DNA of 64,000 bases, taken from NCBI GenBank assembly GCA_003167555.1, contig PMSN01000009.1, forward strand, positions 186,001 to 250,000. Reading direction: 5' to 3'. A program made the translations under genes and the position numbers. Numbering within the stretch: the stretch's first letter is position 1; the number at the start of each line of letters is the position of its first letter. Shown here piece after piece: positions 46,203 to 61,680 of the stretch. A model generated the notes under the pieces. That model was given only the letters and a program-made list of their open reading frames with translations. It did not search any database and was not told the origin of the DNA. The DNA comes from Spartobacteria bacterium. Lineage in GTDB: Bacteria; Verrucomicrobiota; Verrucomicrobiia; Chthoniobacterales; UBA10450.

Positions 46203-46444
46203 CTTGCAGAGCGCTTGCAGGACTTCTGCATTGGCATTCCGGCGCGCCTTACGTACGGCGCGGTTCGCGTCCCCTGAATATAATCTCGACGCGCATACCC
46301 GTTCCGCATAAAAGCAGGTCGACTACGTCACCCGACGTTTCAACGAATCTTCGGCGCGGCTGCATCGGCTGCTTGGGCTGGACTACGCTGGACGCCGCTT
46401 TAGGCGATCTTCAGATATAAATGTAGCCAGTTCCCATTCACCCG

Positions 46445-49400
46445 ATGAAATTCATGCGCCGGCTTACCCTCACGCGTCTCAGGGGCGCGGCGCACGCGTT
46501 CCCGCTGCTTTTTCTGAGCGCGGGGCTGGTGCTCGTGCAGCCGTGCGCGGGCGCCCCCTTTGTTTTTAATAGCACCGGCAGCCTCGCGACCGCACGCTAT
46601 TACCACACGGCGACGTTGCTGCCTAACGGCAAGGTGCTCGTCGCAGGAGGTTCCGGAGTCATCAGCAGCGGCTCGCTCGCGAGCGCGGAACTGTACGATC
46701 CGGCGAGCGGGACCTGGACGGCCACCGGCAGCCTCGCGACCGAACGCCATTTTCACACGGCGACGTTGCTGCCCAACGGCAAAGTGCTTGTCGCAGGAGG
46801 TTTTAATGGCACCAGCGGCTCTCTCGCGAGCGCGGAACTGTACGATCCAGTGAGCGGGACCTGGACGGCGACCGGCAGCCTCGGCACCGCACGCGCTAAT
46901 CACACGGCGACGTTGCTGCCCAGCGGCAAGGTACTTGTCGCAGGAGGAAGTAACAGCAGCGGCACTCTCGTGAGCGCGGAACTGTACGATCCAGTGAGCG
47001 GGACCTGGACGGCGACCGGCAGCCTCGGCACCGCACGCGCTAATCAGACGGCGACGTTGCTGCCCAGCGGCAAAGTGCTTGTCGTAGGAGGGAATAGCAG
47101 CGGCGGCTCTCTCGCGAGCGCGGAACTGTACGATCCGGCGAGCGAGACTTGGACGGCAACCGGCAGCCTCGTCACCGCACGCTTTTTTCACACGGCGACG
47201 TTGCTGCCCAACGGCAAGGTGCTCGTCGTAGGAGGTCGTAACGGCAGCAGCACTCTCGCGAGCGCGGAACTGTACGATCCAGCGAGCGGGACCTGGGCGG
47301 CGACCGGCAGCCTCGCGACCGCACGTGCTAATCACACGGCGACGTTGCTGCCCAACGGCAAGGTGCTCGTCGCAGGAGGTTTTAACGACAGCGGCTCGCT
47401 CGCGAGCGCGGAACTGTACGATTCGGCGAGCGGGACCTGGACGGCCACCGGCAACCTCGTCACCGCACGCTATCTTCACACAGCGACGTTGCTGCCCAAC
47501 GGCAAGGTGCTCGTCGCAGGAGGAATTGCCTCCCCCCTCGCGGGCGCGGAACTCTACGATTCGGCGAGCGGCAGCTGGACGGCCACTGGCAGCCTCGCTA
47601 CCGCACGCTTTTTTCACACAGCGACGTTGCTGCCCAACGGCAAGGTGCTGGTCGCAGGAGGAGTCAACACCAGCTATCTCGCGAGCGGGGAACTGTACGA
47701 TCCGGCGAGCGGGATCTGGACGGCGACCGGCAGCCTCGCCACCGCACGCCAGGTTCACACGGCGACGTTGTTGCCCAACGGCAAGGTGCTCGTCGCAGGA
47801 GGAGCTGGCAGTAGCGGCAGCTCTCTCGCGAGCGCGGAACTGTACGATCCGGCGAGTGGGATCTGGACGGCCACCGGTAGCCTCAGCGCCGCACGTGAAG
47901 GTCATACGGCCACCTTGCTGCCCAACGGCAAGGTGCTCGTCGCAGGAGGAAACAACGACAGCGGTTTTCCCGCGGGCGCGGAACTGTACGATCCGGCGAG
48001 CGGGACCTGGACGGCCACCGGCAGCCTCGGTGCCGCACGCTCTGATCACACGGCCACCTTGCTGCCCAACGGCAAGGTGCTCGTCGCAGGAGGAAATAAC
48101 AGCAGCGGCCCTCGCGCGAGCGCGGAACTGTACGATCCGGCGAGCGGGACCTGGACGGCCACCGGCAACCTGGCCTCCGCACGCTCTGATCACACAGCGA
48201 CGTTGCTGCCCAACGGCAAGGTGCTCGTCTCAGCAGGACATAACCTCAGCAGCTCTCTCGCGAGCGCGGAACTCTACGATCCGGCGAGCGGAACCTGGAC
48301 GGCCACCGGCAGCCTCGCTACCGCACGCTTTTTTCACACGGCGACGTTGCTGCCCAACGGCAAGGTGCTCGTTACAGGAGGTTATAACGGCACCAGCGGC
48401 TATTTCGCGAGCGCGGAACTGTACGATCCGGCGAGCGGGATCTGGACGGCGACCGGCAGCCTCGCCACCGCACGCTATATTCACACAGCGACGTTGCTGC
48501 CCAACGGCAAGGTGCTCGTCGTAGGAGGAACTAACGGCAGCGCTCTTGCGAGCGCGGAACTGTACGATGTGGGCCTTGGTTTCAGTAGCGCGTGGCAGCC
48601 TCAGATCGCGACAGCGCCCTCAACACTCCAATTCGGCAGCCGCCTGATCCTCACCGGTTCGCTTTTCAAGGGCATCTCGCAAGCTTCCGGCGGTAACTTC
48701 CAGGATTCCTCGAGCAATTACCCGATCGTGCAACTGCGCAGCATCGACAGCAGCCAGGTCGTATTCCTTCTGGTGGACCCGACTGCTGGCTGGTCGGACA
48801 CGGCTTTCACCTCTCTCCCCGTGAGCGGCTTTCCTTCTGGCCCGTCGCTGGTGACCGTCTTTACTAACGGTATCCCGAGCGCTGCGAAGTATCTAGTCTT
48901 CGGGGAACCGAGCCAGCTTCTCAACATTTCCACGCGCATGCGTGTCCTTACCGGCGACCAGGTACTGATCGGTGGTTTCATCATCACAGGAACTGATCCC
49001 AAGAAAGTCATCATTCGCGGGATGGGCCCATCACTTAATGGTGTTGGCATTACTTTGTCTGATCCGACTTTGGAACTACATCAAGGCAGCACGACGCTAG
49101 CGACCAACGACAACTGGAAGATCAATGATCAGACCGGCCAATCGCAGGAAGCTGATATTCGTGCTACGACAATTCCGCCGACAAACGATTTGGAATCGGC
49201 GATCGTGATGACTCTTAGTCCGGGGGCATATACCGCAATCCTTGCGGGTAAGAATGGAGGAACGGGCGTGGGCTTAGTCGAGGTTTACGACCTAGCGCAA
49301 GCAGCGAACTCCAAGCTGGCGAACATCAGCACGCGTGGCTTTGTGGACTCAGGCGATAACGTCATGATCGGTGGGTTGATCGTTGGCGGCGGAAGTGGAG

Positions 49401-50056
49401 GCGGTACGGCCACAGTGATTGTGCGCGCACTGGGACCATCAGTTCCCGTAGCAGGGGCATTGGGCGATCCAACCTTGGAACTGCGCAACGGCAGCGGGAT
49501 GCTTGTTGATTCCAACGACAACTGGAAGACACGCCCTGATGGCAGCAGCCAGCAAGCAGCGATTGAGGCGACTACAATTCCACCGACAAACGATCTGGAA
49601 TCAGCGCTTGTGCAAACGCTCGTCCCCGGCAATTACACCGCGATCGTCCGCGGTAAGAACAATACAACCGGCGTTGGGTTGGTGGAAGTTTATCAGCTTT
49701 CCACTGCGGTTGCGACTGACGCTTTCACACAGAACGTTCCCGAGGACAGCGGTATTGAAGGTACCGCCGTGGCTGGTCCAATCATGCCCGTCGAGCGCGT
49801 GGGAGAGACGAATACCGCGCCACTCGGTGGGGCTGTAATCACTATCCAGCCCGCAGGTGGTGGTGCCGAGATCACTCGCAGCGTGGCTGATTCAAAAGGT
49901 AACTTTAGGGCCACGATCCGGCCTGGCACCTATTTATTGGTTCCGCTGCCACCGAATGCCAACTCTCCGTGGCCGCGCGGCACTGCCCAGCCCGTCAGGG
50001 TAAGTCCGCACCAGTTTACAAACGTGGTAGCCGACTACGACACCGGCATTCGTTAG
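46445..50056 (+). CDS. Secreted Kelch-repeat protein with two NISTR/NDNW domains
   Basis: 1203 residues. Signal peptide at about residues 1-37. Residues about 40-705 contain 14 Kelch-type repeats of about 47 residues, each with HTATLLPNGKVLVAGG and ASAELYDPASGTWTATGSL, enough for two propellers. A 110-residue linker follows. Next are two copies of the shared domain (about 822-950 and 955-1085: NISTR, GxSLIGG-type core, DPTLEL, NDNW, NDLESA, PGxYTAI, TGVGLVEVY), then a Cna-B/carboxypeptidase-regulatory-like end (GGAVITIQPAGGGAEITRSV). The DNA repeats are nearly identical, so length probably varies between strains. A 597-codon frame on the other strand is a mirror of these repeats. Confidence 0.88.
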   Translation: MKFMRRLTLTRLRGAAHAFPLLFLSAGLVLVQPCAGAPFVFNSTGSLATARYYHTATLLPNGKVLVAGGSGVISSGSLASAELYDPASGTWTATGSLATERHFHTATLLPNGKVLVAGGFNGTSGSLASAELYDPVSGTWTATGSLGTARANHTATLLPSGKVLVAGGSNSSGTLVSAELYDPVSGTWTATGSLGTARANQTATLLPSGKVLVVGGNSSGGSLASAELYDPASETWTATGSLVTARFFHTATLLPNGKVLVVGGRNGSSTLASAELYDPASGTWAATGSLATARANHTATLLPNGKVLVAGGFNDSGSLASAELYDSASGTWTATGNLVTARYLHTATLLPNGKVLVAGGIASPLAGAELYDSASGSWTATGSLATARFFHTATLLPNGKVLVAGGVNTSYLASGELYDPASGIWTATGSLATARQVHTATLLPNGKVLVAGGAGSSGSSLASAELYDPASGIWTATGSLSAAREGHTATLLPNGKVLVAGGNNDSGFPAGAELYDPASGTWTATGSLGAARSDHTATLLPNGKVLVAGGNNSSGPRASAELYDPASGTWTATGNLASARSDHTATLLPNGKVLVSAGHNLSSSLASAELYDPASGTWTATGSLATARFFHTATLLPNGKVLVTGGYNGTSGYFASAELYDPASGIWTATGSLATARYIHTATLLPNGKVLVVGGTNGSALASAELYDVGLGFSSAWQPQIATAPSTLQFGSRLILTGSLFKGISQASGGNFQDSSSNYPIVQLRSIDSSQVVFLLVDPTAGWSDTAFTSLPVSGFPSGPSLVTVFTNGIPSAAKYLVFGEPSQLLNISTRMRVLTGDQVLIGGFIITGTDPKKVIIRGMGPSLNGVGITLSDPTLELHQGSTTLATNDNWKINDQTGQSQEADIRATTIPPTNDLESAIVMTLSPGAYTAILAGKNGGTGVGLVEVYDLAQAANSKLANISTRGFVDSGDNVMIGGLIVGGGSGGGTATVIVRALGPSVPVAGALGDPTLELRNGSGMLVDSNDNWKTRPDGSSQQAAIEATTIPPTNDLESALVQTLVPGNYTAIVRGKNNTTGVGLVEVYQLSTAVATDAFTQNVPEDSGIEGTAVAGPIMPVERVGETNTAPLGGAVITIQPAGGGAEITRSVADSKGNFRATIRPGTYLLVPLPPNANSPWPRGTAQPVRVSPHQFTNVVADYDTGIR
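46570..48570. repeat. Tandem array of about 141-150-bp coding repeats (14 units)
   Basis: Each unit contains the near-invariant GACGTTGCTGCCCAACGGCA and GAGCGCGGAACTGTACGAT. Variation is concentrated in two short positions per unit, the loops after ATAR and after VAGG. This suggests homogenisation by recombination with selection for loop diversity. Confidence 0.85.
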
Positions 50057-50320
50057 GATCGCGACCGAGCTAAGCCTCCCCATCACCCCGCAGAAATTTT
50101 GCATTGGCGTTACGGCACGGGTGGCGCGGCGTGGGCAAGGGGAGCCGGTTTCAGCCTCTCCCAATAAGGCTTCCCATCGGAAAGCGTTTTGCGAGAATGA
50201 CCGCATATTTCGAATGACCTTGACCGCCAATTTATTATTCATCGGCCTGTGCAGTCTGTTTGCGCAAGAGGAGTCGGGCGGCCGGACACCTGCCTTTCGT
50301 CTACCTATGAAAGATCGAAG

Positions 50321-50405
50321 GTGGCCCACTACTGAAAACACCGGTGGCCCACTAAAACCCGACCGACTGGCCCAATAAAAAAGGGAACGCGTTGTCCACT
50401 CTTTT
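50321..50405. mobile_element. Possible IS21-like terminal repeat remnant
   Basis: Three to four imperfect units of about 20-22 bp with the core TGGCCCACT: GGTGGCCCACTACTGAAAAC, CCGGTGGCCCACTAAAACCC, GACTGGCCCAATAAAAAAGG, then a weaker TTGTCCACTC. Serial TGGCCCACTTTT-type ends are typical of IS21-family elements. No istA/istB genes are here, so only an end remains. Confidence 0.4.
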
Positions 50406-50509
50406 TATCCACCTGTCGAAAAAAATGGGATGATTTCAGCGGCCCGCCAGATGACTCACGATGACTCGGTTTGTTAGGCGCTGTGCTCTGCGATATAGGT
50501 CGGTTCGCC

Positions 50510-50547
50510 TTAGGAAACCCTCGTTCTCTCCGTTGAACTACGGGGAC
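50510..50547. repeat. tRNA-Arg 5'-half copy 3 (38 bp)
   Basis: 36 of 38 bases equal the 5' half of the intact tRNA-Arg; it shares the acceptor change of copy 2 and has one further change in the D loop. Both partial copies are preceded by TTCGCC rather than by the tRNA 3' half. Confidence 0.87.
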
Positions 50548-50688
50548 GCTTCAAGAGCGAACTCCGAAATCTTTCGCGAGTGAGCGTTCAACATTCAATT
50601 TAGAGAAGACTCATGCTTCCAATTGAAAATTTGACGGACGCGCCGCTTGTGGTCTGCTATGCCCTTGTTCAGCTTGAAGGGTTTTAAG

Positions 50689-52887
50689 ATGTTAAGGGCG
50701 AGCTTTTTCACATGTCTGTTTTTGCTGAGCGCAATGGCTCTGTCTTCGGGCCAGAGCGCGGCACCGAAGCCGCTCCCGAGCGAGGCGCTCGAAAAATATG
50801 AGGACTCGCCTGCCTTCATTTGGAGGACGGGGGTCTCGCCAGCGATGATCTCGCCGCATGGCGGCTTCACGAGTTACCAGGTGAACGTCGATACGAACGG
50901 CCAGAACATCACGGGCGACGCGGCGAACGAGCCGTCGATCGCCGTTGACCCGACCAACCCCAATAAGATGTCGATCGGTTGGAGGCAATTCGACAGCGTA
51001 TCGAACAACTTCCGGCAGGCGGGCTGGGGTTACACGATCAACGGCGGCACGTCGTGGACGTTCCCGGGCGTGCTCGAGAACAATGTCTTTCGCAGCGACC
51101 CGGTGTTGAACTCCGATGACACGGGACGGTTTTTTTATCTCAGCCTGCTAACGACATTGTTTGATAACATGTGGCGCTCACTCAACAGCGGCCAGTCCTG
51201 GACGAACCTGGGACCGGCGACGGGAGGCGACAAGCAATGGTTCGCGATCGATAACACAAACAGCACCGGTCACGGATTCCAATACCAGTCCTGGAGCACC
51301 GCCAGCAACAATTACCCAGGCAGGCAATTCAGCCGTTCGACCGACGGCGGGTTCACTTGGATCGATCCGGTTAGCATTCCCCATTCTATCATTTGGGGCA
51401 CGCTCGATGTGGACACGAATGGCAACCTCTTTATCGGCGGCGTGAATCCGAATGACGCGAGCCAGTTTTGGTGCATTCGCTCGACTAACGCGAAGAACGC
51501 GAGTGTCACGCCCAGTTTCGACCAAAGCACCGCAGTCAACTTGGGCGGCGACATAGATGCCGGCGACTTCATAAATCCGGCCGGACTCGTTGGGCAGGTC
51601 TTCCTGGCCGTGGACCGCTCTGGCACCAGTACAAACAACAATGTCTACATGCTGGCGAGCGTGCAACCGACGGGCTTCATCGACGGGAGCGACGTGATGT
51701 TCGTGCGCAGCACGAATGGCGGACAGACATTCAGCGCTCCTCGCAGGATCAACGACGATCCTATCAATCACGCCAAGTGGCACTGGTTCGGAACGCTTTC
51801 GGTAGCACCGAATGGACGCATCGATGCCGTGTGGCTCGACACGCGAAACGCCGCGAATAACAGCGATTCGCAGCTCTTCTATTCTTTCAGCACCGACGCC
51901 GGCACTACGTGGTCAGCCAACGTAGTAGTGAGCGACCCGTTCAATCCTTTCCTCGGTTATCCGAATCAGAACAAGATGGGCGATTACATCACAATTGTTT
52001 CCGACAACGCCGGGGGCAACGTCGCGTATACCGCGACGTTTAATCAGGAGGAAGACATCTATTACGTTCGCGTCGCGCCGCCCGCGCCGCAGCTACTTAA
52101 CATCTCCACCCGTGCGCACGTTCTGACGAACGAACAGGTGCTCATCGCTGGATTCATCATCAACGGGACCGATCCAAAGAAGGTGATGATTCGCGGGATC
52201 GGCCCTTCGCTCACTGGTGTCGGCGTTACTTTGTCCGATCCGACGTTGGAACTGCATCAAGGCAACACGACGTTAACCACGAACGACAATTGGAAAACGA
52301 AATCCGACGGCACGAGCCAGCAGGCGGAGATCGAGGCTACGACAATTCCGCCGACAAACGACCTGGAATCAGCCATCGTGATGACTCTTAGTCCGGGGAC
52401 ATACTCGGCGATCCTTGCGGGTAAGAACGGAGGAACGGGCGTGGGCGTAGTGGAGGTTTACGATCTGGGACAAGCAGCGAACTCCAGGCTGGGGAACATC
52501 AGCACCCGCGGATTTGTGGACACGGGCGATAACGTCATGATTGGTGGTTTGATTGTGGGCGGAGGCAATGTGGGCGCGAGCGCAAAGGTGCTCGTGCGCG
52601 CAATCGGGCCCTCGCTGGTCAGCTCAGGCGTGCAAGGCCCGTTACAAGATCCGACTCTTGAGTTACACAACGCGAGCGGCACGACGGTCGCTTCGAACGA
52701 TAACTGGAAGACGAAACCGGACGGGAACAGCCAGCAGGCGGAGATTGAAGCGACCACGCTCGCACCGACCAACGACTTGGAATCGGCGCTCGTGCAAACG
52801 CTCCCGCCGGGTAACTACACGGCGATCGTGCGCGGCAAGAACAACACGACTGGCGTCGGCCTTATCGAAACTTACAACCTCCCGTAG
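50689..52887 (+). CDS. Secreted BNR/sialidase-like propeller protein with two NISTR/NDNW domains
   Basis: 732 residues from ATG 50689 (MLRASFFTCLFLLSAMALSS, signal peptide); an upstream ATG at 50659 is less likely because GAAGG sits well before 50689. Residues about 60-465 show BNR/Asp-box motifs (STDGGFTWIDP, STNGGQTFSAP, STDAGTTWSA) in a six-bladed propeller pattern, as in sialidases and photosystem-stability-like proteins; sialidase catalytic residues cannot be confirmed. Two shared domains follow (about 470-598 and 602-732). They are very similar at DNA level to those of the Kelch gene, pointing to recent duplication. Confidence 0.82.
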   Translation: MLRASFFTCLFLLSAMALSSGQSAAPKPLPSEALEKYEDSPAFIWRTGVSPAMISPHGGFTSYQVNVDTNGQNITGDAANEPSIAVDPTNPNKMSIGWRQFDSVSNNFRQAGWGYTINGGTSWTFPGVLENNVFRSDPVLNSDDTGRFFYLSLLTTLFDNMWRSLNSGQSWTNLGPATGGDKQWFAIDNTNSTGHGFQYQSWSTASNNYPGRQFSRSTDGGFTWIDPVSIPHSIIWGTLDVDTNGNLFIGGVNPNDASQFWCIRSTNAKNASVTPSFDQSTAVNLGGDIDAGDFINPAGLVGQVFLAVDRSGTSTNNNVYMLASVQPTGFIDGSDVMFVRSTNGGQTFSAPRRINDDPINHAKWHWFGTLSVAPNGRIDAVWLDTRNAANNSDSQLFYSFSTDAGTTWSANVVVSDPFNPFLGYPNQNKMGDYITIVSDNAGGNVAYTATFNQEEDIYYVRVAPPAPQLLNISTRAHVLTNEQVLIAGFIINGTDPKKVMIRGIGPSLTGVGVTLSDPTLELHQGNTTLTTNDNWKTKSDGTSQQAEIEATTIPPTNDLESAIVMTLSPGTYSAILAGKNGGTGVGVVEVYDLGQAANSRLGNISTRGFVDTGDNVMIGGLIVGGGNVGASAKVLVRAIGPSLVSSGVQGPLQDPTLELHNASGTTVASNDNWKTKPDGNSQQAEIEATTLAPTNDLESALVQTLPPGNYTAIVRGKNNTTGVGLIETYNLP

Positions 52888-52964
52888 GAGCTGCCATCCA
52901 CGAGTTGGAACGGAAGGAGTAGTGAAAGCCCGACTACCGGCGGGATCTGATTCTTCTGCGTGGA

Positions 52965-52987
52965 ACAGGCGCGACGCCTGTGCTACG
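52965..52987. repeat. Single GTAG-headed hairpin
   Basis: On the minus strand GTAG is followed by CACAGGCGTCGCGCCTGT, a compact hairpin. It lies between the BNR gene and the tandem small genes. Confidence 0.6.
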
Positions 52988-52995
52988 ACAACGGG

Positions 52996-53024
52996 CCGAA
53001 GCGCAGGGTATTGAACCCTGCTCT
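52996..53024 (-). terminator. Hairpin after the first 65-residue gene
   Basis: CGAAGCGCAGGGT/ACCCTGCTCTTCG: a 7-bp GC-rich stem extended by CGAAG/CTTCG. A matching hairpin follows the second gene at 53353-53381. No U tract on the minus strand, so it may be a stabilising 3' end. Confidence 0.5.
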
Positions 53025-53045
53025 TCGTTTAACCCGTCGGGCGCC

Positions 53046-53243
53046 TTACATGTAGTTCAGCGCGCCACACCGCCAGCACGTGAAGTACGACCAGTTGGAG
53101 TCGACGTAGTTGCCTGCACCGTCATTGAAGCAGGTGTAGAGCAACTGCCTGCCGCGACCGCCTGCTTCTGAAGCGTCGCCGCCTTTTTCCGTGCCTGTGC
53201 CACCGGTCTTATCCGGCTTCTTGCCTGTTTTTTCGTCAGCCAT
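53046..53243 (-). CDS. 65-residue cysteine-bearing small protein, tandem paralogue A
   Basis: Starts MADEKTGKKPDKTGGTGTEK; a hydrophilic Gly/Lys/Glu-rich first half ends GGDASEAGGRGRQ, and a second half is aromatic and Cys-rich: LLYTCFNDGAGNYVDSNW, then FTCWRCGALNYM. Three Cys are present, two as CxxC. No signal peptide or membrane segment. It could be a zinc-ribbon-like protein or a precursor peptide with a leader (GG motif) and core. It differs from paralogue B at few positions, mostly in the first half and in the two residues between NW and FTCW. Both follow an ABC exporter gene on the same strand. Confidence 0.65.
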   Translation of the reverse strand: MADEKTGKKPDKTGGTGTEKGGDASEAGGRGRQLLYTCFNDGAGNYVDSNWSYFTCWRCGALNYM

Positions 53244-53352
53244 AACTTAGCTATCCTTTTCTTTTGTTGTTGTTTGTTGCGGGCCGTCACGTCACTCAAC
53301 GTGACAGCAAAATTTTTTATTGAAGGGGTTCGTCAGTTTTCGCCGGGGACGA

Positions 53353-53381
53353 AGCGCAGGGTATGGAACCCTGCTCTTCGT
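53353..53381 (-). terminator. Hairpin after the second 65-residue gene
   Basis: CGAAGCGCAGGGT then ACCCTGCTCTTCG with a short loop, the same structure as at 52996-53024. It lies just downstream of paralogue B in the direction of transcription. Confidence 0.5.
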
Positions 53382-53398
53382 TCAACCCTTTGGGCGCT

Positions 53399-53596
53399 TT
53401 ACATGTAGTTAAGCGCGCCGCACCGCCAGCAGGTGAACCAACGCCAGTTGGAGTCGACGTAGTTGCCCGCACCGTCATTGAAGCAGGTGTAGAGCAACTG
53501 CCTGCCGCGACCGCCCGCTTCTGAAGCGTCGCCGCCTTTTTCCGTTCCGGAACCGCCCGCGTCTTCCGGTTTCTTGCCTGATTTTTCGTCCGCCAT
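53399..53596 (-). CDS. 65-residue cysteine-bearing small protein, tandem paralogue B
   Basis: Starts MADEKSGKKPEDAGGSGTEK and has the same second half as paralogue A with RW in place of SY before FTCWRCG. The two genes, their 3' hairpins and part of their leaders form a direct duplication of about 350 bp. Base differences in the conserved half are largely silent, which indicates selection on the protein. It lies 282 bp downstream of the ABC exporter gene. Function unknown. Confidence 0.65.
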   Translation of the reverse strand: MADEKSGKKPEDAGGSGTEKGGDASEAGGRGRQLLYTCFNDGAGNYVDSNWRWFTCWRCGALNYM

Positions 53597-53878
53597 AACT
53601 TTAATTATCCTTTTCTTGTTTGTTGTTTTCTGTTGTGTCGCCGTCCCATCACCCGACGTGGCGGCAAAATCTTTTTTCCCGTTCGGTCACCGAGCTGCAG
53701 GACCGTTTGCTTTCGGGTTTTTCATTTCTCTCAATTAGACTGACCAGGTCATTGTTCTTGCGAAATTATCTTTCCTCCCGCGCGCCGCAGCGCCCGGACG
53801 CGGGCGCTCCTGTCCCGGGAGACACAGCGGACCCGGAAAGGCGCGACTGGGAATGGAGCGAAGAGTTTGGTTTGGAAC

Positions 53879-56026
53879 CTAGGCATGAGCGGCGGCGGCG
53901 GGAGCGGCGGCGGCAGGCGCGGTGGTTGGGGCGGAAGCGTCGACGGCATGGCCACCGCTTTCCGCATGATACAGCTCGTAGAATAAACCTTGTTTGGCGA
54001 GTAATTCGTCGGCCGTCCCACGCTCGGCAATTTTGCCTTCGTCGAGGACGATGAAGTGATCGCAGAACGGCATCAGCCAGCGCAGATCATGGTCCACGAC
54101 CATGACCGTGTGGTCTTTGAGCGCGTTCTGGATCATTTCCAGCATCGAAAACTTCTCCTTGTTGTCCATGCCGACGGTGGGCTCGTCGAGGAAGAGCACC
54201 GCGGGATTTCGCAGCAGGCAACGGGTGAGGGCGAGAAGTTTTTTTTGACCGCCGGAAAGGCGGCGCCCGCCTGCAAATTCTTCATCGAGCGGGTTGCCTT
54301 GCACGCCAGCTTGCAAAATTTTCCAGACGCCGGTCCGCTCGCAAATCGCCCGGATCTCAGCGTCGGTCGCGTCCGGTTTTGCCATTATCATGTTGGCGCG
54401 CAGCGTATCGTAAAAGAAGGCTGGGAATTGCGACATCATCGCGATGTGGTCGTAAAGATTGTCGGCCGCATAATCTCCCACGGGGCGTCCACCCAGGATG
54501 ATCTCGCCCGCCTGTGGATCGTAAAAGCGAAGCGCGAGCTTGAAGAACGTCGTCTTCCCCTGCCCCATCTTGGCGACGAAGCCGGTGATTTTCCCCGGAG
54601 GCAGCTCAAAGGAAATGTCGTCAAATATTTTCCGGGCATCCGGCTTGTAGGCAAAGGTCACATTTTTGGCCACGAGCGTGTGGGGTACTGAATCCAGCTT
54701 GACCGTGCCGGAACGTTCCTCGCGACGCGCGCGCGATTCCATCATTGAGGTGACCACCTCGATGCGCGGCCAGGCCATTCCCGCCATGACGATGTAAGCC
54801 GAGATCCCCCCGATCGGCTGCATGAGTTGCGGCGCGAGCAGCAAAATGCTCACGACATTTCCGGCGGCCCCGGCATTGCCCGATTGAAATGCCATGAAGA
54901 CACCGAATCCAACCAGCACCACCTGAATGACCCAGCTGGGCAAACCGTTGACGAGACCGACCACTTCGATCGTATAGGTGCTCTTTAACCGCGCTCTCAG
55001 GAGCGCCGCCAGTTGGTCGTCGTGCTTCTGAGAAAAAATCGGCTCGGCCTCCATCGCCTGGATTTCTTCGGGCGATTGCATTGCTCCGGTGACAAGGCTG
55101 TTGAGAGCAAGCATTTTCCCCTGCATGTCGCTCGAAGCGGTCTGGACCTTGTTCGACAGCTTCCCGGTGAGGTACGGTGAAACGAAGGCGAATAGCACAA
55201 TGCCGATCGGGATCGCCGCCGGTGGGATGACGACGCCGGCGATCATCGGCGCCGGTCCTTCCATCTGGAAATTGTAAATCAGCAATCCGACCGTGAAGCC
55301 GAGGACGACGATCTGGAGCAACATATCTACTGCGATCTGCCGCATCGTCATGGCGGCCTCGACCGTAAATTGGTTCGCCACGGCGTTCAGTTCTCCCGGG
55401 TCATGGGTGTAATAAAATTCCGGCGACTGGCGCAGCAACCTTTCGAAGAGCCGGCTTCGGAGCCGATTCGAAATAGTCAGGTCGAGCTTCGTGGAAATAG
55501 CGCGAAACGGAATGCCGAAGCCGAGCACGCCAAGCGCGCAGAGCGCCCAAAGCATGCAAATGACAATCACGCGCTTCTTAGTGCCGCGCGGCGGCAGGAG
55601 GGACCACCCCGCCTCTTTCTGGGGAGCGGGTGCTACGATCGCAGGAGTTGTCTGGGTGCTTGCCGGCGATGCCGTATCCGGCTGCGCCTCGACCACGGTG
55701 TTGTTGCGCCCCGAAAGTGACCTGGTCACCTCGCCCATCAGCTGTGCCGTGCTGAGGTTCAGCCCATTCTGCAGGAGCGTCATGACGCAATAGAGGAGCG
55801 CGAGATACTTGCTGTAGCCCACGATCTTCCATCCCATCTTGAAGATCTGGCCCCACTTGACGTCGCCCAGCTTTACCTCGTCACCACCCGGGCCCGGCGG
55901 CGGCCCGCCGCTCATTCCGCCCGGCGCCATTTTGGACCCGGCGGGTTGTGCGCCTTGCGCACTCTGTGGCGCCTGATTCGATTGCGACGGCTTGGCGGTC
56001 TGTCCCGGTGGCGGTTTTCCCATCAT
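53879..56026 (-). CDS. ABC exporter (fused membrane and ATPase domains)
   Basis: 715 residues from MMGKPPPGQ; a longer frame to 56071 lacks a ribosome site. A Pro/Gln/Gly-rich N-terminus of about 45 residues precedes the exporter membrane domain (about 70-430, with hydrophobic segments and a periplasmic Ala/Thr/Pro loop around 120-150). The ATPase domain (about 445-690) has GFVAKMGQGKTTFF, where the first Gly of the P-loop is replaced by Ala, LSGGQKKLLALTRCLL, AVLFLDEPTVGMD and VDHDL with the switch His. The end is Ala/Pro-rich. No C39 peptidase domain. The two small Cys proteins lie downstream on the same strand. Confidence 0.88.
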   Translation of the reverse strand: MMGKPPPGQTAKPSQSNQAPQSAQGAQPAGSKMAPGGMSGGPPPGPGGDEVKLGDVKWGQIFKMGWKIVGYSKYLALLYCVMTLLQNGLNLSTAQLMGEVTRSLSGRNNTVVEAQPDTASPASTQTTPAIVAPAPQKEAGWSLLPPRGTKKRVIVICMLWALCALGVLGFGIPFRAISTKLDLTISNRLRSRLFERLLRQSPEFYYTHDPGELNAVANQFTVEAAMTMRQIAVDMLLQIVVLGFTVGLLIYNFQMEGPAPMIAGVVIPPAAIPIGIVLFAFVSPYLTGKLSNKVQTASSDMQGKMLALNSLVTGAMQSPEEIQAMEAEPIFSQKHDDQLAALLRARLKSTYTIEVVGLVNGLPSWVIQVVLVGFGVFMAFQSGNAGAAGNVVSILLLAPQLMQPIGGISAYIVMAGMAWPRIEVVTSMMESRARREERSGTVKLDSVPHTLVAKNVTFAYKPDARKIFDDISFELPPGKITGFVAKMGQGKTTFFKLALRFYDPQAGEIILGGRPVGDYAADNLYDHIAMMSQFPAFFYDTLRANMIMAKPDATDAEIRAICERTGVWKILQAGVQGNPLDEEFAGGRRLSGGQKKLLALTRCLLRNPAVLFLDEPTVGMDNKEKFSMLEMIQNALKDHTVMVVDHDLRWLMPFCDHFIVLDEGKIAERGTADELLAKQGLFYELYHAESGGHAVDASAPTTAPAAAAPAAAAHA

Positions 56027-56287
56027 AAGCTTCTTAATTTCCTCGCAGAATTGAAACCGGATCGGACCCATCGGGTCCGAGGCGTTCAGTGTTCATAGTG
56101 ACCGGAGCGGGCCGTGTCCAGCTTTTTGGAGCAGAGAATTTGACGCGTTCGACCGGCCTCGATGGTCTGAGCTGCCAAGCGGCGAAAACGGCCCTGCGAA
56201 AGGCAGAAAAAGTCGATGATTGGCCCGGGAGCAGCTTCCCCGAAAAGAGTGGCGTCCTGTTGCATCGGACGCGACGCGCCCATTCCC

Positions 56288-58741
56288 ATGATTTCTGAGC
56301 CTAAAGCCGATCTCCAACTGGAAATCGGGCATGTCCTATTTCTCGATATCGTGGGCTATTCCAAGCTCCTCATTAACGAGCAGCACGAGTCGCTTCATGC
56401 ACTGAATCAAATCGTCCGAAACTCTGATGCCTTCCGCGCGGCCGACGCCGCCGGAAAACTAATCTGTCTTCCCACCGGCGACGGCATGGCGCTCGTTTTT
56501 GCCACGACGCCAGACGCGCCCGTGCGTTGCGCACTGCAAGCAAGCAAAGCCTTGCAGATTCATCCGGAGCTCAAGGTGCGAATGGGCGTTCACAGTGGAC
56601 CCGTCAGCGGCACAACCGACGTGAATGCCAGGTCAAACGTAGCCGGGGCCGGCATTAACATGGCCCAGCGCGTGATGGATTGCGGCGACGCCGGACACAT
56701 TCTTCTCTCGAGGCGCGTCGCTGAAGATCTCGCCCAATACCGGCATTGGCAGCCGAATCTGCATGACCTCGGTGAATGCGAAGTGAAGCACGGCGTGATG
56801 GTTTCGGTCGTGAATCTCTACACGAATGAGGTGGGGAATCCGCAGCTGCCCGAAAAGTTCAAAGGCCAAATCGCGGCCCGGCTTTCCGATGACGCCCGCG
56901 CACGCATGATTCTCCTGCCCCCGCGAAATTCGCTGCTGGCAGTCTTGCTTTTTTCGACGGCAGCGATCGCGATCGGCTATTGGATTTTCTTTCCGCCCAC
57001 ACCACAGACGCCGCCCGAGCTTCCCGCCGCATCGAAAACGCACACGGTGCATCCTCCGAGCAAAAGCATCGCCGTGCTCCCGTTCGAAAACCTGAGCGCG
57101 AACCAGGAGACCGCCTTTTTTACCGATGGTGTCCAGGATGAAATCCTTACGGACCTCGCGAAAGTCGCGGACCTGAAAGTCATCAGCCGCACGAGCGTGA
57201 TGCAGTACAAGGCCGTTCCGAAACGCAATTTGCGCGAGATCGCGCAGCAACTCGGCGTCGCCCACATCCTCGAAGGCAGTGTCCAGCGCATCGACAACCG
57301 CATCCGCGTCAACGCCCAGCTCATCGACGCCCGCAACGATGCGCATCTCTGGGCCCAGACGTACGATCGCGATCTCGCGGATGTGTTCGCCATTCAAAGC
57401 GAGATCTCCAGGGCGATCGTCGAACAGCTGAAGGCCAAAATTTCACCGAGCGAGCAGGCGGCCCTTTCGCAAGCGGCGACCACGGATCTCGTCGCGGAAA
57501 AGCTTTTCGTGCAGGCCAGGCAGCTCATGGGTTCGGCCTCCGACCCGGACGCCCGGGAGACGTTGCTCCAAGCGGAACGCTTGCTCGACGAAGCCGTCGC
57601 GCGCGATCCCCGGTTCCTCCGCGCCTGGGGTTTTCTCGTCACCGTGCACCTCGACCTTTATTGGCAAGGATTTGATCACACCGAGGCGCGCCGCGAACTG
57701 GCTCACGCCGCTGTCGAAAAAGCCGCCAGCTTTGCGCCCGATGCCGGTGAAGTCCATCTCATGCGTGCGAATTATCTCTACCAGGGCTTCCGCGATTACG
57801 ACCGCGCCCGGGCCGAACTGGATCTCGCCCGCCGAACACTCCCGAACAATCCCGGAATCTACGTCTTCACGGCCTCGATCGACCGCCGCCAGGGCCGCTG
57901 GGCCGAGGCCCTGCGAAACTTCGAGAGCGCCGTCGAATTGGATCCGCGCAACTTCCGCTTTCTGGAGGAGACAGCATTCACCTATCAGGGTTGGCGCCGT
58001 TACTCCGAAGCGAGCCAATTCTACGAGCGCGCGCTCAGCCTCAATCCGGGCAATTACTTTACCCGCGCCCAGCTCGCGCAAATTCCGCTCGCCGAACGCG
58101 CCGATCCCGAGCCCTTGCGCGTCCAACTTTCCGCCATCCTGAACGAAGATCCTAAAGCAGCGACCGAGATCGCAAACGGCTTGTTTGATTGCGCGCTGGC
58201 GCTCCGCAATCCCAGTGGAGTTACTCGCGCACTCCAGGCGATTCGTCCCGAGGGGTTGCGTGATCCGTTCAATAACTCTCTTTGGGCGCGTGACTGGTTT
58301 GTCGGTCTCGCCGCCCGCGCCTTTGGGAACGAAGACCGCGCGCGCGCTTCCTTCACCGCCGCGCGCACGATCGAAGAAAAAGCGGTGCGCGACCAACCCG
58401 CTTATGCGGCAGCCTGGAGCAGGCTGGGTCTCGTCGATGCCGCGCTCGGCCGCAAGGACGACGCTATTCGCGAGGGTCGACACGCCTGCGAGCTATTGCC
58501 CCTCTCGAAAGACGCATGGGATGGAGCTTCCTACATCGTCAACCTGGCTCTGATCTATGCGTGGGTCGGCGAGAAAGATCTGGCCTTGGAACAGTTGGCA
58601 ATCGCAGCCCAAATTCCCGGCGGTGTGACCTACGGCGATTTAAAGCTTTATCCGCAGTGGGACGCGCTTCGCGGTGACCCGCGCTTCGAGAGACTCGTCG
58701 CCTCGCTCGCGCCTAAAACCCAGCCCGTCCATTACGATTAG
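56288..58741 (+). CDS. Class III nucleotide cyclase with TolB-like and TPR domains
   Basis: 817 residues from MISEPKADLQLEIGHV. Cyclase domain about 10-190: LFLDIVGYSKLL (first metal Asp), LPTGDGMALVF (second metal Asp) and INMAQRVM with the Asn/Arg pair. A transmembrane segment lies at about 220-240 (NSLLAVLLFSTAAIAIGYWI). A TolB_N/FlgO-like domain follows (SIAVLPFENLSANQETAFFT; ISRTSVMQYK). The last about 400 residues are TPR-like. It probably makes cAMP or a related messenger under control of a periplasmic sensing part. Divergent from the ABC exporter gene. Confidence 0.88.
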   Translation: MISEPKADLQLEIGHVLFLDIVGYSKLLINEQHESLHALNQIVRNSDAFRAADAAGKLICLPTGDGMALVFATTPDAPVRCALQASKALQIHPELKVRMGVHSGPVSGTTDVNARSNVAGAGINMAQRVMDCGDAGHILLSRRVAEDLAQYRHWQPNLHDLGECEVKHGVMVSVVNLYTNEVGNPQLPEKFKGQIAARLSDDARARMILLPPRNSLLAVLLFSTAAIAIGYWIFFPPTPQTPPELPAASKTHTVHPPSKSIAVLPFENLSANQETAFFTDGVQDEILTDLAKVADLKVISRTSVMQYKAVPKRNLREIAQQLGVAHILEGSVQRIDNRIRVNAQLIDARNDAHLWAQTYDRDLADVFAIQSEISRAIVEQLKAKISPSEQAALSQAATTDLVAEKLFVQARQLMGSASDPDARETLLQAERLLDEAVARDPRFLRAWGFLVTVHLDLYWQGFDHTEARRELAHAAVEKAASFAPDAGEVHLMRANYLYQGFRDYDRARAELDLARRTLPNNPGIYVFTASIDRRQGRWAEALRNFESAVELDPRNFRFLEETAFTYQGWRRYSEASQFYERALSLNPGNYFTRAQLAQIPLAERADPEPLRVQLSAILNEDPKAATEIANGLFDCALALRNPSGVTRALQAIRPEGLRDPFNNSLWARDWFVGLAARAFGNEDRARASFTAARTIEEKAVRDQPAYAAAWSRLGLVDAALGRKDDAIREGRHACELLPLSKDAWDGASYIVNLALIYAWVGEKDLALEQLAIAAQIPGGVTYGDLKLYPQWDALRGDPRFERLVASLAPKTQPVHYD

Positions 58742-58745
58742 TTTT

Positions 58746-60320
58746 CTACTTTTCTTCGAGCACTTTCTTCGCCGCGTTGTGGCCGGGAATGCCGCTGACG
58801 GCGCCGCCGCGACGCGCGCTTGAGCCGCAGAGAAACACATTCTCGAATTCCGTCTCGACACCCCAGGTGCCTTCCTGCTCCCTGGTCGCGGCAAAAGGAA
58901 AGCTCGGCGCGTCCTGGAAAATATTGCCGTGGTAAAGCCCAAGCGCATCCTCGATGTCGACCGGACTCTTGCCTTCAAGGCAGAGGCTGCCGTCGCGCGC
59001 GACCGCCAGGCAATCTTGCAGCGGCTCCTCCAGCCAGCCGTTCAAGCCGTCGACAAATCTTTCTTCGGCACGCTGCCGCATCGTCTCGTTGTTTTCGGCA
59101 AATAAACGCCATGGCGTGTCGAGGCCAAATAGAGTCATGGTGTGAAAACCTTTTTCGCGCAGTTCCGGCGAGAGAATACTGTCGTCCGTGAGCGTGTGAC
59201 AATAGACCTCAGCCGGCAGCTTGTCCGGCAATCGCCCCTGCAGCGCCTGCTGGTAGCTCACATTCATCTCCTCGTAACCTTCATCGATGTGGAACGTGCC
59301 GCAGAAGGCTTCGGTCTCCGCGTAACGCGTCGCCTTTAGTTTCGGCAACCGGCGCAGAAGCATGTTGATCTTGAACACGGAACCTTCATCGGTCGGATCG
59401 GGGTGATGCCGTTTGCCGAGCAATTTCGCCAGCACGTTCCGGCCGAAGTTCACCAGAAGAAACCGCGCCTCGACCGCCTGTGTTTCCCCGCCGACCTCAA
59501 ATTCCACCTTCTTCTTTGTCCCCGTCACCTCGAGGGCGCGAAGATCGACGCGCGTCAACATCTCGGCGCCACTTTGCCGCGCCACCTGTTCGAGCTCCCG
59601 CGCCACGGCGCCCATCCCACCCACCGGGACTTTCCATTCGCCCGTCTTGTTGCCGATGAGGTGGTAAAGAAAACAACGGTTCTGCAAGAGCGTCTCATCG
59701 TGCGGATGAGTGAAGACGCCGATCTTCCCGTCGGTTAACACCAGGCCGCGGACCAGATCGTTTTGGAGATAGCGCTCGATCGCGCGACCGAGCGGTTCTT
59801 CCGCCAGACTGCGCCAGGCCTCGCGGTGCTGATCGCTTACATCAAAGCGACGACGAAAATCTTCTTTCGCGGCGAGCGGCTCCAGCATTGTGTCCCAGAC
59901 TTCCTCGGCAAAGACACGGGCGAGCCCATAAAACTTTTTCATCTGCTCGAACTCCGTGTGATTTCCGGTCAGCTCGAACATCGACTGACAGCTCGCCTCT
60001 TCCGAGACGTTGCTCAAGAGCAAACCGTCATGGCGGCCATTCTTCACGTAAGGAGTAAACGAGCCCGTCGCGCGCCGGCGCAGTTCGAGGTTCAGTCCAA
60101 GTTCGCGAATAATTTTCTCGGGAAATAAGCTGACCAGGTACGAATAGCGCGAGAGATGCGCGTCGTAGTCCGGAAATACCTTCTGCGACGTCGTAGCGCC
60201 ACCGATGTAATCGTTCTTCTCCAGCAACAAGACACTCAACCCAGCGCGCGTCAGATAAGCAGCCGCCACCAGACCATTATGGCCGGCACCGAGGATAACC
60301 GCGTCGTACTTAGATTTCAT
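58746..60320 (-). CDS. FAD-dependent oxidoreductase, phytoene desaturase/PYROXD2-like
   Basis: 524 residues. The dinucleotide-binding motif is AVILGAGHNGLVAAAYLTRAG, followed by EKNDYIGGATTS. C-terminal family features include NVFLCGSSARRGGAVSGIPGHNAA, the flavin-binding GxxxxPGG-type end. NAD(P)/FAD proteins of this group occur across bacteria and include human PYROXD2; their substrates are mostly unknown. No carotenoid genes are adjacent, so carotenoid desaturation is not supported. Confidence 0.88.
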   Translation of the reverse strand: MKSKYDAVILGAGHNGLVAAAYLTRAGLSVLLLEKNDYIGGATTSQKVFPDYDAHLSRYSYLVSLFPEKIIRELGLNLELRRRATGSFTPYVKNGRHDGLLLSNVSEEASCQSMFELTGNHTEFEQMKKFYGLARVFAEEVWDTMLEPLAAKEDFRRRFDVSDQHREAWRSLAEEPLGRAIERYLQNDLVRGLVLTDGKIGVFTHPHDETLLQNRCFLYHLIGNKTGEWKVPVGGMGAVARELEQVARQSGAEMLTRVDLRALEVTGTKKKVEFEVGGETQAVEARFLLVNFGRNVLAKLLGKRHHPDPTDEGSVFKINMLLRRLPKLKATRYAETEAFCGTFHIDEGYEEMNVSYQQALQGRLPDKLPAEVYCHTLTDDSILSPELREKGFHTMTLFGLDTPWRLFAENNETMRQRAEERFVDGLNGWLEEPLQDCLAVARDGSLCLEGKSPVDIEDALGLYHGNIFQDAPSFPFAATREQEGTWGVETEFENVFLCGSSARRGGAVSGIPGHNAAKKVLEEK

Positions 60321-60477: not shown

Positions 60478-61680
60478 CTACTCTTCCTTGAACTTCACCG
60501 ACTTCTTAAAAGCCCGGTAAGTCTCCTTGTACATCTGGAGGGCGTGGTCGTCTTGCACCCAAAATTCCCAGAGCCGGGAATACCCGCCGGAAGCTGCGGT
60601 CGAAAGGTCGACGCTAAAGTAACGGGTAGAGGAACGACCCGGCCCTTCCACGGTTACGTCTTCGTGGTAAACGGAGCTTCTCGCGGGAATGCGCTCCGTG
60701 ATTTTTTCGCCAGGCAGCAAGGGGATTGCGATGGCCCTCGCTTCAACCGTGGGCGCGAGACCACGTACGCTTATGGCGGTGATCGCGAACTGGACGGCTC
60801 CATCCGGGGACTGAAAGCGATGGTTAAGAATCGTTCCAGCCGATTGAGGAACAACCGGCGGGATGTTCTTAAAACTGGGAGGAATACGTGCATCGAGATT
60901 ACCTAACGACAAGGGAGGTGAAGAAGCCAGCGGCAGCGCGGTAGGCTTGGGTGCAACCGTAGCCGCGGGAGTAGCGGCTGGAGCGTAAGTTGGGACCGGA
61001 GTAGCGGCGGGAGCCTGAGTCTGAAAGGGAGTAGTCGTCGGCGCGCTGCTCGGAATGATCACGGGCGCTCTACTTGAATACGGAGTGGGAGTAACCACCG
61101 GGGTAATTCTTCGCGAACTGTTCCGCCGAGCGGAGAAGATCCACACCGCCGCTGCGGCGATGAGAGCCAGCAGAACGATCACGCCCAACATTTTCAGCCA
61201 GCCTTTTGGTTTGCCAGAGGCGCGGCCATCCAGCAACTCGTGGATACCGGCAATGAGCCGGTCGGCATGATGATGAAAATCGACGCCGGTATCGAGCACC
61301 AGGGCGTTACGAAACGCAAACGCTCGAAGCTCCTCCGGCAGGTCGTCAGCCGCCGGCATGACGGTGTTGTCGAGCAGCACGGGAATAACAGGAATCCCGC
61401 GTTGCAAGGCGGCGGCGATTTCCATCCGAACAAAGTCTGCCGGATCATCGATCCGGCGCTTGCCCGGCTCGCGGCTTCCGACCCAGCTCGGCCCGACCAC
61501 AGCTACGACGACACGCGCGCGTTCCAGGGTGTGCGTGATCTTGTCCCGAAAATCCACCCCAAAGGGGATGGAATCGAAATCCATGAAGACATTCTGTCTT
61601 CCAAACTCAGCCCGCAAACGGTCGTGGAGGCGACCCGTCACGGGACTCGAATCTTCCCTGCGATATGAGATGGCGATCAT
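60478..61680 (-). CDS. TIR-domain membrane protein
   Basis: 400 residues. Residues 1-140 are a TIR domain: IAISYRREDSSPVTGRLHDR, FMDFDSIPFGVDF, VVVAVVGPSWVG, and FVRMEIAAALQRGIPVIPVL whose Glu aligns with the catalytic Glu of TIR NADases. A transmembrane helix lies at about 164-182 (LGVIVLLALIAAAAVWIF). It is followed by a Thr/Pro/Ala-rich linker (repeats like APAATPVPTY) and a C-terminal domain of about 130 residues outside the membrane. Such an orientation (TIR inside, sensor outside) suggests signalling. No defence genes are adjacent. Located 50 bp downstream of thrC on the same strand. Confidence 0.85.
   Translation of the reverse strand: MIAISYRREDSSPVTGRLHDRLRAEFGRQNVFMDFDSIPFGVDFRDKITHTLERARVVVAVVGPSWVGSREPGKRRIDDPADFVRMEIAAALQRGIPVIPVLLDNTVMPAADDLPEELRAFAFRNALVLDTGVDFHHHADRLIAGIHELLDGRASGKPKGWLKMLGVIVLLALIAAAAVWIFSARRNSSRRITPVVTPTPYSSRAPVIIPSSAPTTTPFQTQAPAATPVPTYAPAATPAATVAPKPTALPLASSPPLSLGNLDARIPPSFKNIPPVVPQSAGTILNHRFQSPDGAVQFAITAISVRGLAPTVEARAIAIPLLPGEKITERIPARSSVYHEDVTVEGPGRSSTRYFSVDLSTAASGGYSRLWEFWVQDDHALQMYKETYRAFKKSVKFKEE

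Follow-up and report, generated by a model that had tools for sequence, protein, structure and literature searches.

A family of predicted zinc-ribbon small proteins tied to one ABC exporter in Verrucomicrobia

Class I lanthipeptide handling involves a LanT-type exporter and the proteases NisP, EpiP and PepP, the last being the cytoplasmic member of the S8 leader protease group (PMC5812297). For NisP, Arg at P1 and a small hydrophobic residue at P4 are important, P2 need not be Pro, and the enzyme also cuts a site altered to the factor Xa sequence IEGR (PMC5812297). Further comparisons are offered by the NHLP precursors and their ABC transporter, for which a pattern of substrates sharing one exporter has been argued (PMC2887384), and by small zinc-ribbon proteins (Pfam Zn_ribbon_3, HVO_2753 and archaeal Zn-ribbon RNA-binding proteins). 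A search of the literature on zinc ribbons with ABC exporters, bacteriocins or subtilases found no description of the pair reported here, in which an undescribed family of small proteins of the zinc-ribbon type (hereafter ribbon proteins) is, judged from gene content and gene order, almost certainly tied to one ABC exporter.

The window, a 64,000-nucleotide stretch of contig PMSN01000009.1 from a Spartobacteria bacterium, carries the exporter gene and two ribbon genes in tandem, with the following features:

53879 to 56071, minus strand: ABC exporter half-transporter (open reading frame, 730 residues; membrane domain plus ATPase)
53399 to 53596, minus strand: ribbon propeptide gene (putative) copy 1, exporter-proximal, 65 residues (open reading frame, family member)
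53046 to 53243, minus strand: ribbon propeptide gene (putative) copy 2, tandem duplicate, 65 residues (open reading frame, duplication)
53507 to 53521, minus strand: EAGGR motif of copy 1, proposed leader end (alignment conservation; putative cleavage role)
53154 to 53168, minus strand: EAGGR motif of copy 2, proposed leader end (alignment conservation; putative cleavage role)
53402 to 53500, minus strand: zinc-ribbon-like domain of copy 1, CxxD...CxxC (AlphaFold2; relatives have CxxC...CxxC)
53049 to 53147, minus strand: zinc-ribbon-like domain of copy 2 (same basis as copy 1)
53626 to 53673, minus strand: 5′ leader hairpin of copy 1 (model R1 match, E 1.5e-10; fold)
53269 to 53316, minus strand: 5′ leader hairpin of copy 2 (model R1 match, E 1.3e-9; fold)
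53350 to 53380, minus strand: terminator-like hairpin 3′ of copy 1 (inverted repeat; fold)
52997 to 53027, minus strand: terminator-like hairpin 3′ of copy 2 (inverted repeat; fold)

Both ribbon genes start with ATG and their products are 89% identical, in agreement with the sequence-only reading, which had described two nearly identical 65-residue genes on one strand with an exporter upstream; the distance from the exporter stop to the first peptide gene is 282 bp, as claimed. That reading correctly recognised the exporter gene, but the end it gave, 56026, is an internal Met, and the open reading frame runs to 56071. The duplication of about 350 bp with a hairpin after each gene was also borne out: the duplicated units (52993-53318 and 53346-53675) share 86% identity over a 330 bp alignment with a period of 353 bp, inverted repeats lie 3′ of both genes (2 matches against 0.02 expected by chance), and the hairpin regions have folding energies of about −29 and −34 kcal/mol. 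Two statements about divergence were too strong. Differences in the supposedly fixed C-terminal half had been called mostly silent, and amount to ~4.8 silent versus 4.2 replacement changes; the supposedly variable first half contains MADEKxGKKPxxxGGxGxEK and EAGGR, which are conserved family-wide. The suggested comparison of leader with core gave a dN/dS of ~0.18-0.19 in both halves, pointing to purifying selection, and no positive selection on the leader was seen between the two window copies. Elsewhere in the window, positions 46445-50056 (plus strand) encode a long repeat protein with repeats containing ...NGKVLVAGG, and a 597-residue open frame opposite it (46400-48193, minus strand) is probably a by-product of the repeats.

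The 5′ hairpin before the ATG is common to the window-type copies of the genus, with limited covariation (two-sided compensatory change in 3 of 11 pairs), and could be an mRNA stabiliser or an autoregulatory site. The hairpin model R1 (13 sequences) gave 11 matches with E < 0.01 in five genomes, all upstream of ribbon genes; R1 was built largely from the matched sequences, so that the result is less an independent confirmation than a demonstration that the hairpin is absent elsewhere. No credible Rfam match was found in 50000-60000.

Nine ribbon copies on five contigs were found in the window's own genome. Among 83 genomes of the taxonomic family, the window proteins matched only in eight of the same genus, with 3-9 copies each, and nine loci from named public genomes belong to Spartobacteria, Chthoniobacterales or Verrucomicrobia metagenome assemblies. 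Most of the compared genomes are metagenome assemblies, and each rank was searched as a sample. The alignment revealed a common layout, in which conserved N-terminal blocks in a polar segment are followed by E[VA]xGR and then by the ribbon. Three Cys are invariant in the 34 genus members, and the count of three per window protein in the sequence-only reading was right; relatives usually have a further Cys where Asp (residue 41) stands in the window type. Many relatives contain a complete CxxC...CxxC zinc ribbon with two knuckles about 15-20 residues apart, and the window copies CxxD...CxxC. Some four-Cys ribbon genes of the genus (at L066, L071 and L072) lie directly downstream of an apparent tRNA gene (ACG anticodon region).

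The window proteins had no match in Pfam or NCBIfam, and their relatives gave weak, generic zinc-ribbon matches in both. A profile search of solved structures with the family likewise returned weak matches, mostly to zinc-binding proteins. AlphaFold2 (44 sequences) gave a mean pLDDT of 73 and a pTM of 0.55, with block means of 80-88 at residues 31-65 and an all-beta C-terminal domain. The N-terminus is poorly ordered in the model, and values are low at residues 1-5 and 25-29. The best Foldseek matches were archaeal ribosome-associated zinc ribbons and the ZitP zinc finger, every one with E > 1. On the Cys pattern of the relatives, taken together with these weak profile and fold matches, we accept the ribbon proteins as zinc-ribbon type, with zinc binding predicted. 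They share two Cys knuckles and a small all-beta domain with the described small zinc-ribbon proteins, a likeness that consists of weak profile and fold matches, but differ from them in the N-terminal E[VA]xGR segment, the obligate pairing with an exporter and, in the window type, CxxD in place of the first CxxC. A LysW-type carrier was considered, as a LysW model weakly matched two relatives, and was rejected: the ribbon is C-terminal here and a LysW-type tail was not seen.

The sole significant Pfam matches in the exporter were ABC_membrane and ABC_tran, preceded by a Pro/Gly-rich N-terminal extension of ~90 residues; Pfam gave no match to a C39 peptidase domain in the window exporter, and no membrane-fusion or outer-membrane partner was noticed. 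Export of the double-glycine/C39 kind (class II bacteriocin) was rejected, since the exporter has no C39 domain and the proposed leader ends in E[VA]xG[RH], not GG/GA/GS; the residue before the motif Gly varies, and the polar character of the proposed leader contrasts with the hydrophobic pattern of double-glycine leaders. Two exporter orthologues (G149:C282 and G782:C36) contain an in-frame stop, for which assembly error or decay is possible.

An exporter orthologue is present in 17 of the 210 genomes of the order, and all 17 carry ribbon genes. Wherever downstream DNA was available (18 of 18 orthologues, from four families and several gene contexts), a ribbon gene lies downstream on the same strand. 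In the window genus, neighbourhood clustering placed the exporter beside a window-type gene in 7 of 8 genomes, with three arrangements of the flanking genes; in G022 a stretch of 150 bp separates the end of the exporter from a contig end, and ribbons begin 58 bp into another contig, an arrangement that fits a split locus. Outside the genus, the exporter was found in G051, G059, G144, G146, G147, G148, G149, G156 and G157. Ribbon profile A1 matched, at E ≤ 1e-5, the eight genus members and each of these nine except G156, whose three tandem ribbons were found by reading the DNA beside its exporter. We put six weak A1 matches in exporter-negative genomes (E 1.5e-4 to 5.6e-4) down to other zinc ribbons or to chance. 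Ribbon homologues in genomes without the exporter, which the sequence-only reading had said would count against its proposal, were not found.

The Fisher value for the 17/17 table (2e-25) takes the 193 exporter-negative genomes as ribbon-free and ignores relatedness. A better argument is provided by genus g14, where just two genomes have the exporter or a ribbon gene, and each of the two has both. At the phylum level (388 genomes), the diverse profile A2 yielded one strong added match, G462, a complete genome from another family of the class in which the exporter lies 72 bp upstream of the ribbon. A class-level search for the exporter gave new matches in G782 (E 1e-124) and G654 (E 2e-87). G782, an out-of-sample orthologue, has a ribbon directly downstream. 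G654 was rejected as an orthologue (35% identity, no ribbon in the flanking DNA examined, a second ABC-type open reading frame beside it) and left outside the orthologous group, a boundary that was set after the result was seen.

This recurrence of ribbon homologues beside the exporter, for which the sequence-only reading had suggested looking, supports a functional tie between the two. That reading had also offered, as its own alternative, a small zinc-ribbon protein unrelated to the exporter; the zinc-ribbon assignment stands, but the unrelatedness is rejected by the pairing. Most paralogues in the window's genome are indeed not beside the exporter, as would be expected if an ordinary small zinc-ribbon protein lay there by chance. 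Adjacency in 18 of 18 cases despite changed flanking genes, co-occurrence in 17 of 17 genomes and the G782 locus nevertheless make chance adjacency scarcely credible, and we reject it.

Obligate pairing would be equally expected if the ribbon were a cytosolic zinc-binding partner or regulator that binds the exporter, or the leader hairpin of its own mRNA, and adjusts the transport of another substrate. Binding to RNA or proteins is common among zinc ribbons, most of the weak fold matches are to ribosome-associated ribbons, and the conserved 5′ hairpin before the genus copies is in keeping with such a role. Fusion of the ribbon to another protein, which the sequence-only reading had named as evidence against its proposal, was seen once: in G020:C29 (L070, 4242-9536) the ribbon forms the C-terminus of a 1764-residue open frame with nSTAND1 and WD40 domains, and this copy has no E[VA]xG[RH] motif before the ribbon. 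As read from the open frame, the fusion shows that the ribbon domain is usable inside the cell, and no other single finding weighs as heavily against a purely exported role. On the other hand, up to nine dispersed copies per exporter would be odd for a subunit or regulator, and a conserved motif beside a disordered segment resembles a processing site. We regard a cytosolic partner or regulator as a possible but doubtful explanation.

Genomes usually hold one exporter and several dispersed ribbon genes, up to nine. Because the same disproportion is seen with NHLP precursors, the ribbon proteins may be substrates that share an exporter. Like the NHLP/Nif11 systems (PMC2887384), the ribbon system has several putative precursors per genome tracking an ABC transporter and a conserved putative leader region. 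Unlike them, it lacks a Gly-Gly cleavage motif, a nitrile-hydratase or Nif11 leader and a C39 peptidase, and its core is conserved, whereas the NHLP core is variable with a Gly-Gly site. No NHLP/Nif11 leader model was among the top 25 matches for the 30 relatives scanned.

In a diverse alignment, E[VA]xG[RH], which lies outside the fold, shows hardly any change at its Glu and Gly, and the spacer to the first Cys varies; some copies have EAGPR or EAAPR, and some motifs have His for Arg. The motif resembles S8 leader-protease sites, and we infer cleavage after its Arg or His by an S8 protease because its form agrees with the published NisP sites. An S8 gene flanks the exporter-ribbon pair in four genera, being adjacent in G051, G059, G144, G146, G157 and G782. 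The gene order is GAF-S8-exporter-ribbon in G059 and G146 and S8-exporter-ribbon in G157; S8, GAF, YkuD, ribbons and exporter are clustered in G051, an HtrA-type protease, with GAF and S8 divergent, occurs in G144 and at a second G146 locus, and S8 is convergent in G782. In G148 and G149, GAF, S8, a trypsin-like protease and a TPR-S/cyclase protein lie beside extra ribbons, away from the exporter. Across the order, S8 is present in 30 of 210 genomes, comprising 15 of the 17 with the exporter and 15 without it; it is absent from G020 and was not found in G156. By gene content, the S8 protease is associated with the exporter but not obligate.

In the window genus, S8 is encoded elsewhere in the genome, together with a GAF protein and a CobW_C protein whose tail is His-rich; G020 lacks S8 as well as CobW_C. 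The CobW_C gene, whose product has a His/Cys-rich tail, follows the S8 gene (L150 5852-7051, L151 8243-9421, L149 7927-9123), and a metal-handling link to the zinc ribbons is possible. YkuD (L,D-transpeptidase) proteins beside ribbons in G051 and G059 (L098 7366-8556, L099 11736-12935) contain EDEVSGR directly ahead of a hydrophobic stretch; this sequence matches the ribbon motif in form, which could be chance.

TPR-S plus guanylate-cyclase proteins recur near S8/GAF or ribbon genes (L151 9391-11484, L102 7258-9303), suggesting nucleotide signalling to the GAF protein. Near the window exporter are a TIR-domain protein (60478-61680, minus strand) and a cyclase/TPR protein (56216-58741, plus strand), and cyclase relatives also occur near ribbons in G020:C1 and G025:C5. 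The ribbon might be an adaptor of a system for signalling or conflict (cyclase/TPR-S, GAF, S8, TIR, STAND), itself not exported, with the exporter as one output. In G059, G157, G782, G147, G148 and G149 and at the S8 loci of the genus, TPR-S/cyclase-like genes are found close to the exporter, ribbons or S8, TIR genes lie near the window and G059 loci, and the one fusion joins the ribbon to an nSTAND1-WD40 protein. However, such signalling genes are common in these genomes, so their nearness may be background, and none matches the constancy of the exporter; we consider an adaptor role improbable. A defence role was rejected, as the PADLOC matches to the exporter, S8, TIR and nSTAND1 look generic and there was none to the ribbon.

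The ribbon system resembles class I lanthipeptide handling (PMC5812297) in its small putative precursor with a proposed N-terminal leader, its ABC exporter without a peptidase domain, the linkage of S8 in several genomes and a motif, E[VA]x[GP]R, similar to ASPR-type sites. It differs in that no lanthionine-forming enzymes (LanB/LanC) were recognised among the subset of ribbon-locus neighbours inspected, the core is a conserved zinc-ribbon-like fold, precursors are many and dispersed, S8 is unlinked in the window genus, and the linked S8 has a GAF companion. A leader/core appearance and a Cys-rich core would suit a RiPP in the strict sense, with a post-translationally modified core. A non-exhaustive neighbour scan recognised no modification enzyme beside the loci examined, which leaves the RiPP-like product of the sequence-only reading unsupported, and the core is a conserved fold with Cys of the metal-ligand type; strict RiPP status is thus very improbable.

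We favour, at a probability of roughly 55%, the reading that the ribbon proteins are propeptides, with a leader removed by a cut at the motif and a ribbon core that leaves through one dedicated ABC exporter. A leader/core organisation is plausible because E[VA]xG[RH] is conserved just ahead of the ribbon, at variable distance, and S8 is often linked. The N-terminal segment would be a leader read by the exporter, the protease or both; the subtilisin-like S8 protease would cut after the motif Arg or His; and the exporter would move the ribbon across the inner membrane. Candidate roles for the exported ribbon are a signal, a bacteriocin-like agent or a metal-binding envelope protein, and our guess is an intercellular signal or antagonist. 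This propeptide-export reading is weakened by a ribbon core that is not hypervariable but conserved, with purifying selection acting on it, by the S8 gaps (G020, G156), by the S8-bearing genomes without the exporter and by His in some motifs. A more elaborate version, in which cyclase/GAF controls a cytosolic S8 protease that trims dispersed propeptides at E[VA]xGR, and the metal-binding ribbons, as signals or antagonists, cross the inner membrane through the exporter, is tentative and on balance unlikely.

If propeptide export is right, Verrucomicrobia would have an exported-peptide pathway whose core is a folded zinc ribbon, not a modified peptide or a classical bacteriocin, and the near-perfect pairing makes the handling of a small metal-binding domain by a peptidase-less ABC exporter directly testable. 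If the ribbon is instead a regulator, an ABC exporter would have an obligate partner in a small zinc-ribbon protein, which to our knowledge would be new.
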